From Thermoflexus hugenholtzii JAD2 (lineage in GTDB: Bacteria; Chloroflexota; Anaerolineae; Thermoflexales; Thermoflexaceae), in the NCBI RefSeq assembly GCF_900187885.1, contig NZ_FYEK01000027.1, forward strand, positions 211,630 through 275,629: a stretch of 64,000 nucleotides of DNA. Reading direction: 5' to 3'. This document shows positions 47,963 to 53,091 of the stretch, piece after piece. Made by a program: the position numbers and the translations under genes. Each line of letters begins with the position of its first letter. Position 1 is the stretch's first letter. The notes beneath the pieces are model-generated. The model saw nothing but the letters and a program-made list of their open reading frames with translations. It was not told where the DNA came from and did no database searches.

Positions 47963-48259
47963 ATGGCGCTCTTCCTGTTGAGGGAACGTTGGCGGGCCTG
48001 GCGTCAGGCGTTCCAGGAGTTCTTCTACGGCTTCGCCGCCTACGATGTGGTCCAGCATCTCCTGGAGATGCGGGCCGCCACGGAGAACCTGTTCATCGCC
48101 GCCCTCTTCGGCGATCTCATCGGCCTTCCCATCATGCCGCCCTATTACAGCCTGCGCCTGCTGCCCTATGTCGTCCCGGTCCTCAGCACCTGGAAGCGAC
48201 GGGTCTTGCGGGAGCGCGAGTTCACCGACGAGCACGATTTCCATTTGCACGGCCTGTGA
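47963..48259 (+). CDS. Small protein A of the ArsA-like cassette
   Basis: A 98-residue protein of unrecognised family. A basic, aromatic N-terminus (RERWRAWRQAFQEFFYGFAA) is followed by a moderately hydrophobic central segment (LFIAALFGDLIGLPIMPPYY) and the C-terminal SLRLLPYVVPVLSTWKRR, then an acidic/His tail. It is paralogous to the next gene (shared GDLIG.PI.PPYYSLR.LPYVVP.ISTWKRR pattern). No Cys. It could be a membrane-associated helical hairpin. First gene of a four-gene plus-strand unit with two ArsA/Get3-type ATPases. Confidence 0.85.
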   Translation: MALFLLRERWRAWRQAFQEFFYGFAAYDVVQHLLEMRAATENLFIAALFGDLIGLPIMPPYYSLRLLPYVVPVLSTWKRRVLREREFTDEHDFHLHGL

Positions 48260-48329
48260 GGGACGGCTTGCGGCATCGATCCCGATGCCGGATCGTTGCC
48301 GTGAGGGATCTCTGAGGAGGTGTGAAGAC

Positions 48330-48611
48330 ATGACGGAGCAGAAGACACGGGAGGGGTTGCTGCGTCGGGTGGTGAATTTCGTGCAGGAGCTGACCTACGG
48401 CATGGCGGCCCACGACATGGCTCGCTACGCCCTCCGCACCCGGGCCAGCATGGAGCATCTGTTCATCCTGATCACCATGGGCGACCTCATCGGCGTCCCC
48501 ATCCTGCCGCCTTATTACAGCCTGCGCATCCTGCCCTACGTGGTGCCCCAGATCAGCACCTGGAAGCGCCGCATGCTCCGGGAGCGGGATGTGGCGGACG
48601 CGATGTTCTGA
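48330..48611 (+). CDS. Small protein B of the ArsA-like cassette
   Basis: A 93-residue paralogue of the preceding protein. Conserved parts are YGMAAHDMARYALRTRASME, LFILITMGDLIGVPILPPYY and SLRILPYVVPQISTWKRR. No Cys and no signal peptide. GAGGAGGTG lies about 7 nt upstream of ATG 48330. The tandem pair mirrors the tandem ATPases downstream, suggesting one small subunit per ATPase. Family not recognised. Confidence 0.85.
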   Translation: MTEQKTREGLLRRVVNFVQELTYGMAAHDMARYALRTRASMEHLFILITMGDLIGVPILPPYYSLRILPYVVPQISTWKRRMLRERDVADAMF

Positions 48612-48645
48612 ACGTCAAGTGAATCCCCTCATGAGGTGAGCTGGA

Positions 48646-49632
48646 ATGGCCACTGCGTTGGCAAAATTGCTCCGGGAGAACTCTGAGCGCCGTTACATCA
48701 TGTTCGGCGGCAAGGGCGGGCTGGGGAAGACCACCTTCTCGGCGGCCACGGCTTATTGGCTCGCCAAGCAGGGCTATAAGGTGCTGGTTTTTTCCGTCGA
48801 TCCCCAGGCCAGCCTCTCGGACATCTTCCAGCGGGATATCTTCGGCAAGGGCCCGGTGGAGATCATGCCCAACCTCTGGGCCCAGGAGATCGACGCCGAT
48901 CGCCGGATCAAGGAGTATCAGGAGGAGATCCGGCGCAAGATCTTGGACATGTATGGCCTGGATCAGGTGCCCCAGGAGATCGAGGACTACATCCAGGCGG
49001 CCTCCGCCGAGCCGGCCATGGAGGAGAGCGCCATCTTCGACGCGGTGGTGGACATCGTGGTTGAGGGCCGCTACGACTACTACATTTACGACCTGGTCCC
49101 TCTGGGGCACGCCCTGTATTACCTGAGTATGGCCAAGGTCTACGACGAGTGGATCACCAAGATCACGAAGCTGCGGGAGGAGATGCGGGAGTATGAAGAG
49201 ATGGTGGCCCGCATCCGCCGCCAGCAGACCGAGGAGGACCGCATCCTGGAGGAGCTGCAGTATATCCGGCAGCGGATCAACATGTCCTCCAGCATCCTCA
49301 CCGACAGCCGCCGCACGGCTTTCTTCTTCGTGTTGATCCCGGAGGAGCTGGTGATCCTGGACACGTTGAAGGCGGCCGAGCTGTTCCGTCGGTTCGACGT
49401 GCCCATCTCCGGCTACGTGGTCAACCGGGTCCTTCCGACGGAGCTGCTGGGCCAGAACATCCCCGAATATCTGCGCAACCGCATCGAGATGCAGCGCCGG
49501 CACCTGGAGGAGATCCGCGCCCGCTTCGGCGACCAGGTCCTGGCCTATGTGCCCGAGCTGGAGCGGGATGTCACCGGACTGGACATGATCGCCCGGGTGG
49601 CGGATCTGCTCTTCGGAAACGGGAAGGCGTGA
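48646..49632 (+). CDS. ArsA/Get3-family ATPase 1 (switch II altered)
   Basis: A 328-residue deviant-Walker ATPase. The P-loop with signature Lys is GGKGGLGKT (21-29). Switch I is SVDPQASLSDIF with the catalytic-type Asp52, but switch II, normally DTAPTGH, reads DLVPLGH (149-155). The adenine-recognition segment is YVVNRVLP. A long, charged helical insert (about 165-225) replaces the client-binding region of Get3. There is no Cys at all, so neither the arsenite site of ArsA nor the zinc CxxC of Get3 is present. GAGGTGAG precedes the ATG. Confidence 0.9.
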   Translation: MATALAKLLRENSERRYIMFGGKGGLGKTTFSAATAYWLAKQGYKVLVFSVDPQASLSDIFQRDIFGKGPVEIMPNLWAQEIDADRRIKEYQEEIRRKILDMYGLDQVPQEIEDYIQAASAEPAMEESAIFDAVVDIVVEGRYDYYIYDLVPLGHALYYLSMAKVYDEWITKITKLREEMREYEEMVARIRRQQTEEDRILEELQYIRQRINMSSSILTDSRRTAFFFVLIPEELVILDTLKAAELFRRFDVPISGYVVNRVLPTELLGQNIPEYLRNRIEMQRRHLEEIRARFGDQVLAYVPELERDVTGLDMIARVADLLFGNGKA

Positions 49633-49655
49633 GATCGATCCGGGAGGGGAGAGGG

Positions 49656-50645
49656 ATGATCCGCATCGAGAAGACGATGGTGGATTTCCTGCGGGAGCAT
49701 CCTCGCCTGAAGTATGTGTTCTTCGGCGGGAAGGGCGGGGTCGGGAAGACGGTGATGGCAGGGGCCACAGCCCTCTGGTTCGCCCGGCAGGGCCGCCGCA
49801 CCCTCCTGGCCTCTACCAACCCGGTCCACAGCCTCTCCGGGCTGTTGGACCAGAACGTCTTCGGCAAGCCGACGCCGGTGGCCGGGGTGCCGAACCTGTG
49901 GGCTTATGAGATCGACACCAAGGACACCATCGAGCGCTCCAAGCGGGAGATCCGGGAGAAGATCCAGTGGTTTCTCAAGTTCGCCGAGATCTCCACGCGG
50001 GCCGACGAGTTCGTGGAATCGGCCACCATGAACCCGGCCTTCGAGGAGTCGGCGATGTTCGAGAACATGATCGACCTCATGTTCCGAGACGAATACGAGG
50101 TCTATGTGTTCGACACTGCCCCCACAGCCAACGCCCGCCGGCTCCTCGGGATGTCCAAAGTCTACGCCCTCTGGGTGAACAAGATGATCAAGTCCCGCCA
50201 GGAGGCCCAGGCCCTCCGCAAGTTGCTCTCCTTCACCAAGAAGGAGGAGCCGGACCCCCTGATGGATTACCTGATCAGCTTCCGCGATCGGATGGAGCGG
50301 GCCCGGAAGCTGATCACCGATCCGGAGCTCACCGCTTTCTTCTTCGTGACCCTGCCGGAGGCGCTGCCCATCGCGGTGATCCGCCGTTTCATCCACTGGT
50401 TCCACGACTTCGGCATCCCGGTGGGCGGCGTGATCGTCAACGGCCTCATCGATCGGTCCTTCCTGGGGGAGAACACCCCCGACTTCGTCCGCAACCGCAT
50501 CGAGATGCAGGCACGCTATCTCCAGGAGATCGAGGCGCTCTTCGACGGCTTGGTGCGGGGGATGACCCCCCTCCTGGAGAACGAGGTGCGTGGCGTCCCC
50601 ATGCTGGAGCGCTTCGCCGGCTATCTGTTTGCCAGCTCCTCGTGA
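49656..50645 (+). CDS. ArsA/Get3-family ATPase 2 (switch I altered)
   Basis: A 329-residue paralogue of the preceding ATPase. P-loop GGKGGVGKT (24-32). Switch I reads STNPVHSLSGLL, so the catalytic-type Asp is Asn55; switch II DTAPTAN (153-159) is canonical. Recognition segment VIVNGLID. Again Cys-free. Its defects complement those of ATPase 1, which suggests a heterodimer with composite sites. ATG 49656 is set by GGGAGGGGAGAGGG just upstream; the gap to ATPase 1 is 23 nt. It ends the cassette, followed by a strong terminator. Confidence 0.9.
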   Translation: MIRIEKTMVDFLREHPRLKYVFFGGKGGVGKTVMAGATALWFARQGRRTLLASTNPVHSLSGLLDQNVFGKPTPVAGVPNLWAYEIDTKDTIERSKREIREKIQWFLKFAEISTRADEFVESATMNPAFEESAMFENMIDLMFRDEYEVYVFDTAPTANARRLLGMSKVYALWVNKMIKSRQEAQALRKLLSFTKKEEPDPLMDYLISFRDRMERARKLITDPELTAFFFVTLPEALPIAVIRRFIHWFHDFGIPVGGVIVNGLIDRSFLGENTPDFVRNRIEMQARYLQEIEALFDGLVRGMTPLLENEVRGVPMLERFAGYLFASSS

Positions 50646-50716: not shown

Positions 50717-52264
50717 TCAGGCAGGCCGTTGCTGGAGGGAGGGGGATGGTTCCCCGGAGGGGGAAGGGCGAGGGGCGATGGTTGCGGGTTGGGGTGGCCG
50801 GAGGAGATGGACCACAAACAGGACCTGAGCCAGGGCGAAGAGCACCCCAAACAGCAGCATGGCGACCCCAAACCCCGGGCCATCCCCCGGCCAGGGATAA
50901 GCCCGGCGGGGGATCCCCGCCGCTCCGGCCCGCAGCAAGGTGTAGAACATCCCCAGCGCGCCCAGGAAGGTGAGCCCGGCGTGGAGGAATCCCCGGCGCG
51001 CCTCCAGGGGCCACCCTCGCAGCCCGGGGTGATGGTGATACAACATCCCCAGCCAGATCATCCCAACGGCGATCAGGATGGTCATCGTATGGGCGGTCAC
51101 GTAAAGGGTGCCGTGAAGGCGCAGGTTCCAGGCCCGGGTGGCCAACTGGAGGGCCACGAAGCCATCGATGAGGTAGAGAAGGAACCCGCCCAGCACGAAC
51201 AGCGGGGCCGGGTGAAGCCGCAGGCCATCCCGCCAGAGGGTGGCCCCGATGTTGAAGGCGGTGAAGGCGGCGGCGAAGCCCGTCAGCCACGAGGCCGCCT
51301 GGGCCAGCGCGGTGAACCCCGGTGGGGAGGTTGAGATCATCGTGTAAAGATGGTGCCCGAAGGCGGGGATTGCGGAGAGGGTATACAGGCCGACGGCCAA
51401 CACCCCCATGCCCGGGCTATACAAGCGAGGTGTTGGGGCTCGCGTGTAGAGCGGGACCAGGGCGTAGACCGCTGCCAGGGCCATGATCCCCATCGCCTCC
51501 ATCAGGTTGTGGGCGAACAGCCAGAACGCCACGTTGAAAGGCCACGGATCCACCTCCGGACGGATCTGCGGGAGAAGAGGGCCCAGAGGGATCCGGCACC
51601 AGGAGGGGAGCTGTTCCGGTCGAAGGAGGCCCAGGACGACCGCGAAGACCACTGCCGCCAGCAGGAACACCGGGAGCCCGAGGATCGGCATCATCCCGAC
51701 GTAGGCGGCCATCCCCAGCATCCCCGGATCCCTGCGCATGCGCTCCCACTGCCTCCGGGAAGGATAAAGCCGCCCCCACATCGTCCGGGCCAGCGCGGCG
51801 GGGTAGAGGTAGAGGACCGCGAGCAAGACCAGCGCGATCCCCACGAGGGCGAGGATCAGCGGACCACGCCCCCACATCCCCCGGGCAGGTCCTACGGTCG
51901 GCAGCGGATACATCAGGGTATAGGAGGGGGCGAATCCCTGCAGGTTGGCTAGGGTGAGGAGGATCAATCCGCCGTTCAGGAGCCCATACAGCCAGCGGGG
52001 CAGGAGACGAGGCGGAGAGGATCCTGTCTCCTCCATGCAGGAGCGGGCTTGAAGCAGGCTCAGGCCGACCATCAGCTGGAACAGGCCGCCGAAAACGAAG
52101 GCCACCCCGTGCCCGGTCAGGGCGATGGCATACAGGCGAGCGGCGCCTCCCTGGGGGAGGAACGCCTGCAAGGCGGGCAGAAACAGCCCCAGGATCCCGC
52201 CCGCCGCGAACCAGACCAGGGCGGTGAGGATCAGCCACCCGGAGAGCCGTTCCGGGCGTGCCAT
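50717..52264 (-). CDS. ba3-like heme-copper protein with NO-reductase-type active site, subunit I
   Basis: A 515-residue membrane protein with about 13 helices, aligned by eye with Thermus ba3 oxidase subunit I (shared landmarks such as IPRRAYPW near the C-terminus). Low-spin heme ligand H52 is in LTGHGVAFVF; the CuB pair is H304/H305 (FGHHLYTM); heme a3-type ligand H392 is in VTAHTM. Two canonical residues differ: helix VI reads AHNLMEAMG, so the cross-linked Tyr of oxidases (HPxVY) is Glu256 four residues after H252, as in NO reductases (HxxxE); and the second His of HFH in helix X is Met394. It is therefore unlikely to be a normal oxidase; NO reduction is a candidate. AGGAGGAAG precedes ATG 52264. 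The C-terminal tail is Pro/Ser-rich. Confidence 0.85.
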   Translation of the reverse strand: MARPERLSGWLILTALVWFAAGGILGLFLPALQAFLPQGGAARLYAIALTGHGVAFVFGGLFQLMVGLSLLQARSCMEETGSSPPRLLPRWLYGLLNGGLILLTLANLQGFAPSYTLMYPLPTVGPARGMWGRGPLILALVGIALVLLAVLYLYPAALARTMWGRLYPSRRQWERMRRDPGMLGMAAYVGMMPILGLPVFLLAAVVFAVVLGLLRPEQLPSWCRIPLGPLLPQIRPEVDPWPFNVAFWLFAHNLMEAMGIMALAAVYALVPLYTRAPTPRLYSPGMGVLAVGLYTLSAIPAFGHHLYTMISTSPPGFTALAQAASWLTGFAAAFTAFNIGATLWRDGLRLHPAPLFVLGGFLLYLIDGFVALQLATRAWNLRLHGTLYVTAHTMTILIAVGMIWLGMLYHHHPGLRGWPLEARRGFLHAGLTFLGALGMFYTLLRAGAAGIPRRAYPWPGDGPGFGVAMLLFGVLFALAQVLFVVHLLRPPQPATIAPRPSPSGEPSPSLQQRPA

Positions 52265-52265
52265 C

Positions 52266-52790
52266 TCACTTCCTCCTTTCCACCAGGAATTCGGTCACCA
52301 TCCGACCGTGGCCGACCCCGCAATATTCCAGACAGCGCACGGTATATCGTCCGGGATCGGTGAAACGAAAACGCAGGCGCTCTTCATGGCCCGGCATGGC
52401 CATCACCGTGAACAGGAGACGGTTGTGGGGATCGTAAACCCCGAAGGAGTGCAGGGTGTCCAGGCTGGACACCCGGAAGACCACCGGAGTGTCCGCAGGC
52501 ACTGAGCGGGGGACGATCCGATAGTTCCAGGTCCAGGCCACCACCTCAACGGTAGATGCTTCCTCCGCCTGAGGGCGCTCGGCCTGGGCCCAGCGCAGGC
52601 TGCTCAGGTTGAGGCCTAACCCGAGCAGCGCAAACAATCCGAGCCAGAGCCCCCGGGCAACCCATGGCCGTGGAAGATCCCCACGGGCTCCTCGCAGCGC
52701 CCGCCAGAGGAGCCCGAACGCGGCTCCCAAGAGCAACAGGGAGATCCCCAGCGCGCTGATCCACGCTCCATCGGGTCCTTCCAGCCGCAT
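52266..52790 (-). CDS. CuA-containing subunit II of the heme-copper protein
   Basis: A 174-residue protein with two N-terminal membrane helices (GISLLLLGAAFGLLWRAL; LGLFALLGLGLNL) and a periplasmic cupredoxin domain. The binuclear CuA ligands are all present: H114 (DTLHSFGV), C153, E155, C157, H161 and M164 in CLEYCGVGHGRM. It should accept electrons from a cytochrome c or cupredoxin and pass them to subunit I. Its stop is 1 nt before the subunit I start. AAAGGAGGAG lies 5 nt before ATG 52790, directly after the attenuator. A CuA site rules out a cNOR- or quinol-only scheme. Confidence 0.92.
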   Translation of the reverse strand: MRLEGPDGAWISALGISLLLLGAAFGLLWRALRGARGDLPRPWVARGLWLGLFALLGLGLNLSSLRWAQAERPQAEEASTVEVVAWTWNYRIVPRSVPADTPVVFRVSSLDTLHSFGVYDPHNRLLFTVMAMPGHEERLRFRFTDPGRYTVRCLEYCGVGHGRMVTEFLVERRK

Positions 52791-53056
52791 CGCTTCTCCT
52801 CCTTTGAATGGGAATTAAAAAACCTCCCCCGGCCGATTTCGGGCCGGGGGAGGAGCTGGGACAGAATTTCTCGGTCGCTTCTCAGGCGATATGGGGAAGG
52901 TCTGTTGGAGGCAAGAATAAACGGCTGCCCCCCGCCGGCCCGAACAGTCGACCGGGACAACACGCCGTGTCCGGCCCGCCCTGGAGGCAGCCGTTCATCA
53001 GAGACCGGAGACTCCGATCCTGCTCTGCCATCCAACGCGTCCTTTTCATCGGCTTT
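52791..53056 (-). ncRNA. Structured 5' leader of the heme-copper operon (candidate riboregulator)
   Basis: The promoter at 53063-53091 would start RNA near 53056, leaving a 266-nt leader before the ATG. It contains a short stem CAGAG/CTCTG near the 5' end, then a long arm closed by ACGGCTGCC (pairing near 52990) with GGCAGCCGT (near 52921) that encloses further helices (GGACA/TGTCC), a 65-nt linker, and an intrinsic terminator right before the ribosome binding site. I matched it to no riboswitch class known to me. No convincing leader peptide was found. Confidence 0.7.
52817..52853 (-). terminator. Attenuator terminator before subunit II
   Basis: A perfect 12-bp GC stem (52823-52834 with 52842-52853, 7-nt loop) followed on the minus strand by six T (52822-52817). 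It ends only 11 nt before the ribosome binding site of subunit II, too close for a promoter between, so it must be bypassed for the operon to be expressed. Confidence 0.88.
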
Positions 53057-53062
53057 TTCAGC

Positions 53063-53091
53063 ATCGTATGCATGGGGCCTGGATCTGTCAA
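53063..53091 (-). promoter_or_regulatory. Sigma70 promoter of the heme-copper operon leader
   Basis: On the minus strand TTGACA (53091-53086) and TACGAT (53068-53063) are 17 bp apart, in the spacer just after the gltB stop codon (53122). Confidence 0.82.

Follow-up and report, generated by a model that had tools for sequence, protein, structure and literature searches.

Our analysis of the window, the whole 64,000-nucleotide stretch of Thermoflexus hugenholtzii JAD2 DNA considered here, suggests that two adjacent genes encode a nitric oxide reductase that depends on CuA and represents a heme-copper family of its own, with sNOR as its sister group; judging from sequence comparisons, we give this reading a probability of about 0.55. 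We favor NO reduction because a Glu stands four residues after the helix VI His (position H+4), with the spacing found in cNOR and qNOR, because no other active-site Tyr is evident, because the three metal-B His are kept and the CuA site is intact, because the sister clade is sNOR, and because the NO-making nitrite reductases of the NirS type and NirK co-occur with the family. The first-pass annotation had already pointed to a non-canonical NO reductase, which stays plausible as a predicted function. The gene pair and its features are as follows.

50717..52264 (-): heme-copper catalytic subunit I, 515 aa, of the H-x3-E and H-x-M family (ORF, PF00115, AlphaFold model)
52109..52111 (-): helix II H52, the other low-spin-heme ligand (invariant in 73/73)
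51497..51511 (-): helix VI H252-N-L-M-E256, a metal-B His ligand and a Glu at the cross-linked-Tyr position (alignments)
51350..51355 (-): helix VII H304-H305, the remaining two metal-B ligands (invariant in 73/73)
51083..51091 (-): helix X H392-T-M394, the high-spin-heme His and, at H+2, a Met in the place of the low-spin-heme ligand (invariant in 73/73)
52266..52790 (-): CuA subunit II, 174 aa (PF00116; CuA ligands in 54/54; best PDB match the Thermus ba3 CuA domain)
52299..52334 (-): CuA loop C153-L-E-Y-C157-x3-H161-x2-M164 (alignment of 54 homologues)
52823..52853 (-): strong intrinsic-terminator-like hairpin, ~32 nt before the start codon of subunit II (sequence)
53063..53091 (-): match to a sigma-70-like promoter, TTGACA-17-TACGAT, located between the genes gltB and subunit II (10/12 matches)

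Subunit I starts with ATG, contains zero internal stops and matches PF00115 with 142 bits (cut-off 34.8). Its AlphaFold model, based on 39 family sequences (pLDDT 86, pTM 0.89), shares the 12-helix fold of the heme-copper superfamily; the best PDB matches in Foldseek are aa3 cytochrome oxidases (TM ~0.78), and ba3 (1ehk) reaches a TM of 0.76. Given the gap of only one base to the upstream gene for subunit II, the two genes are translationally close. The presence of a CuA subunit, as proposed in the first-pass annotation, was borne out: H114, C153, E155, C157, H161 and M164, that is, the C-x-E-x-C-x3-H-x2-M loop for electron entry together with its upstream His, are invariant in all 54 homologues, and the match to the Thermus ba3 CuA domain has an E-value of 2.5e-13. 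Upstream of the pair, the promoter match agrees at 10 of 12 positions, with 0.2 such matches expected in shuffled sequences. The hairpin, a 12-pair GC stem followed by a T-run, lies ~200 nt after it and could be an attenuator or a distant terminator of gltB; in an Rfam search around the operon every match fell below the gathering score, and no known Rfam element was found. Convergent with the pair, tandem ArsA/Get3-type ATPases (48646-49632 and 49629-50645, within 47963-50645 on the (+) strand) are preceded by small paralogous proteins with the common motif PPYYSLR-LPYVVP-STWKRR-LRER.

Within the genus of the window organism, only one other genome, G004, has a family member. Its copy (L020) occupies the same place after gltB and lacks an equivalent of the hairpin; subunit II is without its CuA part and subunit I carries stops and frameshifts, a decay that may be partly an artefact of the poor assembly (84% complete, 6% contaminated). 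This copy could indicate that the gene pair is a relic, unimportant in the genus and on its way to loss. However, both genes of the window copy are fully intact and keep every ligand, and the decayed copy comes from that poor assembly, so that we regard such a fate as very improbable.

Beyond the genus, a different family of the phylum has two homologues with 56-58% identity. When 85,000 species genomes were scanned, 74 loci emerged, 73 of them with near-full-length proteins; the loci span Chloroflexota/Thermomicrobium, Caldarchaeum/Calditenuis archaea (Caldarchaeales), Alpha-, Beta-, Gamma- and Deltaproteobacteria and SAR324. Within one proteobacterial class, 321 genomes were searched with a profile, which found four members, including the genome on which the search was centred. 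Because these scored 792-804 bits and the next protein 87 bits, the family is discrete, and with four members in 321 genomes it is rare, at ~1% of the sampled class. Searching plasmids for close members gave none, only weak partial oxidase matches of ~28%. In three loci (L029:9508-10746 (-), L035 and L094), a 412-aa membrane protein without a Pfam family adjoins the archaeal copies.

Two substitutions in subunit I set the family apart. In helix VI, LFAHNLMEAMG aligns without gaps with GHPIVYFW and GHPLVYFW of B-type oxidases, so that E256 falls exactly on their Tyr column, as the first-pass annotation had stated, and it falls on the same Tyr/Gln column relative to aa3 (L001), ba3 (L002) and eNOR (L003) of the same genome. 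Invariant in all 73 near-full-length proteins are H52, H252, E256, H304, H305, H392, M394, D367, Y364, R453 and R454, and thus all three metal-B His; for E256 this count is partly by construction, since the scan used two patterns, one of them HNLMEAM. Mere ascertainment by this pattern was rejected as an explanation of the conservation, because the pattern-free HMM scan of the 321 genomes still recovered H-x3-E in all four members, three of them new and one reading HNLMEVM. On the evidence of these alignments, a chance origin of E256 is excluded. In known NOR families, the H+4 column holds Glu, Gln, Asn or Asp (PMC8756737 Table A4; PMC3475470). Oxygen reductases carry a cross-linked Tyr in helix VI or, in cbb3, in helix VII; the possibility raised in the first-pass annotation, that a Tyr from another helix takes over, was checked by alignment and found no support, as the cbb3 helix VII column is A, S or G in the family and Y307 is not conserved (Y/F/I).

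The second substitution, in helix X, had been missed by the first-pass annotation. This helix reads LHGTLYVTAHTMT; H392 of the high-spin heme is kept, and two residues on, at the low-spin-heme position, stands M394, where every other heme-copper family aligned has His. The family thus has five invariant His and M394, in place of the six invariant His which define the heme-copper superfamily (PMC3475470). An alignment artefact was considered and dismissed: MAFFT at times opens a gap after H392-T, because the family has a helix X shorter by one residue, but the raw sequence still has Met at H+2, and phmmer aligns the H392-T-M394 segment to AHFH of known oxidases. Moreover, H-x-M was in no scan pattern, so its occurrence in 73 of 73 proteins is free of pattern selection.

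Phylogenetic analysis (IQ-TREE, LG+C20) of A, B, C, eNOR, sNOR, cNOR and qNOR rows placed the family as a monophyletic group (100/100) with a long stem, sister to sNOR (99/95), a position which holds among these rows, gNOR, bNOR and nNOR being absent from the tree. The sNOR rows were identified by the Ruegeria (Silicibacter) pomeroyi megaplasmid protein and by the Asn signature (PMC8756737). The closeness to the B (ba3) family that had been claimed in the first-pass annotation was not upheld: eNOR groups with B (100/99) and the family lies outside this clade, AU tests rejecting its union with B alone (p 2.4e-5) and with B and eNOR (p 0.023), so that membership in the B family is ruled out. Union with the A family was likewise rejected (p 0.036). 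Descent from cNOR/qNOR, which H-x3-E might suggest, was rejected as well with six cNOR/qNOR rows (p 0.015), though not yet when cNOR was one long branch (p 0.059), in agreement with the first-pass annotation. The His-x3-Glu site looks convergent because cNOR and qNOR group with cbb3 (98/97) and the family groups with sNOR; from these trees, it would have arisen independently of the cNOR/qNOR site. Profile-profile scores agree with the tree (sNOR 236, A 213, B 147, eNOR 124, C 77, cNOR 39), and among solved structures the family profile found aa3 and ba3 but neither NOR nor cbb3 at E<=1.

Residue by residue, the sister clade sNOR (Silicibacter/Ruegeria pomeroyi megaplasmid type; norSY of ammonia oxidisers) shares with the family, besides the top profile score of 236, two subunits with CuA, a length of ~480-510 aa and H-x-T before the helix X His. 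However, sNOR has Asn at H+4 and a bis-His low-spin heme (HFH) where the family has Glu and H-x-M, and since both groups are monophyletic (100/100) and the family is not nested within sNOR, it does not belong there. With cNOR and qNOR it has in common H-x3-E in helix VI (HLWVE there, Glu at H+4), HH in helix VII and HGT...AH in helix X; it differs from them in its CuA subunit, where they have NorC or a fused quinol part, in H-x-M as opposed to H-x-H at the low-spin heme, in a profile score of only 39 and in its separate clade. As in eNOR, the active-site Tyr is replaced, and eNOR also has a cupredoxin subunit II for electron entry (PMC8756737), but there Gln stands at H+4 (GHPAQQ/GHSSQQ), the heme is bis-His and the clade is shared with the B oxidases. 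B-type (ba3) oxidases resemble the family in fold, in the CuA domain, which is nearest that of Thermus ba3, and in the His before T in helix X, whereas Tyr to Glu, low-spin His to Met and the separate clade distinguish it from them, including the ba3-type enzyme of the same genome (L002). Compared by signature residue, gNOR has Asp (PMC8756737) and bNOR, the CuA-NOR of Bacillus, has Asn (PMC3475470) at H+4, as against Glu here; neither was in the tree.

There is an even chance that the family is the "nNOR" of Murali and co-workers, catalogued though uncharacterised, an identity compatible with any function. Lists of putative NORs that are related to B and have public HMMs include nNOR beside bNOR, eNOR, gNOR and sNOR (PMC11388526; PMC10359470; PMC12569097), and a systematic survey would hardly overlook a family with His-x3-Glu that occurs in cultured genera, Sedimenticola among them; however, these three papers name nNOR without its residues. 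Somewhat doubtful, in comparison, is the full set of novelties, namely an unnamed, CuA-fed family with an independent His3-Glu site on the A/B/sNOR side and the only known His/Met low-spin heme, which would break the "six histidine" rule. We found no assayed enzyme of the H-x3-E/H-x-M family in the literature.

The Thermoflexus genome holds four heme-copper enzymes, namely an aa3 (L001), a ba3-type (L002), an eNOR with GHPAQQ (L003) and the H-x3-E/H-x-M protein. Two further loci of this genome with weak PF00115 matches (L005/L006) were discarded as oxidases, their only plausible long ORF being a 254-aa membrane protein. A separate heme-copper-like family of ~470 aa reads GHxLQF in helix VI and PAHYHG in helix X and lacks the HH pair of helix VII (L129:5198-6592 in reverse-complement coordinates, L132:7738-9156, L133:3453-4874, L135 and L136:824-2251); it is sister to eNOR (100/99), lies within 5-6 kb of eNOR in several genomes and, from its sequence, seems to be without a metal-B site.

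Genome content fits a source of NO. NirS-type heme-d1 genes occur in 16 of the 25 member genomes (G134 and G745 being one genome) and, within the class sample, in four of four members as compared with 63 of 321 genomes overall (20%), which by chance has a probability of ~0.0015, or of 0.008 without the centre genome, kinship ignored. The window genome encodes NirK (315 bits, over the cut-off), as do four of the nine genomes of its genus, and a separate eNOR. Among 18 member genomes examined, 14 have eNOR, whereas the class sample has it in 25 of its 321 genomes and in only one of its four members. Several members carry their own eNOR or cNOR, so the family enzyme is not needed as sole NOR.

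The gene neighbourhood is more equivocal. Against NO reduction, no recurrent nir, nor or nos gene was found in the immediate neighbourhood of the family loci. In addition, proteobacterial loci have as their strongest neighbours a Cu-type P-ATPase (48 loci) and the heme O synthase gene ctaB (TIGR01473; 36 loci), which would equally fit a copper/heme-O oxidase. An oxygen reductase without the Tyr, with CuB, heme O and a Glu that supplies protons for slow or high-affinity O2 reduction, would explain why these two genes adjoin most proteobacterial loci; for the sister family sNOR, too, an oxidase function has been argued (PMC6967387), and the solved structures nearest the family profile are aa3 and ba3. 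Nevertheless, we consider such an enzyme unlikely, as the cross-linked Tyr, which the members studied require for complete O2 reduction (PMC6431628), is gone with no substitute found, and the member genomes examined already carry Tyr-bearing oxidases among their other heme-copper proteins.

The class III ADH gene adhC lies nearby in 21 loci from several proteobacterial classes and SAR324. Other recurrent neighbours are genes for glutathione reductase (10 loci), S-formylglutathione hydrolase (9), GFA (8), formate dehydrogenase (6), the methanethiol oxidase MtoX (6; 734 bits over a cut-off of 650) and SCO1 (5) as well as a kinase/regulator pair (20/14 loci), which also stands downstream in the chloroflexotan locus L025. 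The proteobacterial neighbourhood can thus be read as nitrosative/GSNO defence or as methanethiol and formaldehyde oxidation, and AdhC, formylglutathione hydrolase, GFA, formate dehydrogenase and methanethiol oxidase, which point to C1/sulfur metabolism, speak against a simple denitrification role. All of these neighbours could belong to a terminal reductase dedicated to C1-sulfur oxidation, with NO, O2 or another acceptor. However, none of the neighbours named for the proteobacterial loci stands near the window, Thermomicrobium and archaeal copies, the window genome is without SBP56/MtoX, and the adhC family is also the GSNO-reductase family; this dedicated role appears slightly less probable still than O2 reduction. 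The eNOR in those 14 of 18 member genomes and the adhC near 21 loci also count in favor of NO reduction.

In a CuA-fed NO reductase of this kind, cytochrome c or a cupredoxin would reduce CuA in subunit II, and the electron would pass to the low-spin heme held by H52 and M394 and on to the high-spin heme on H392. This heme would face a second metal, probably Fe, on H252, H304, H305 and E256, and 2 NO + 2 e- + 2 H+ -> N2O + H2O would proceed between the two; the ctaB neighbour in Proteobacteria suggests heme O as the heme type.

Like sNOR and eNOR, the family is likely to be annotated as no more than a subunit of cytochrome c oxidase. If it reduces NO, the His3-Glu iron site was built at least twice from oxidase-like ancestors, and convergence in the switch between NO and O2 becomes testable by comparing two unrelated solutions. 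Moreover, the invariant Met would offer a natural test of the way in which the potential of the low-spin heme sets electron delivery. An NO-reducing family would also represent an added source of N2O, both among denitrifiers that oxidise sulfur and C1 compounds and among the archaea and bacteria of hot springs. Overall, in this rare but widespread family the metal site of the classical NO reductases may have been invented a second time, independently.
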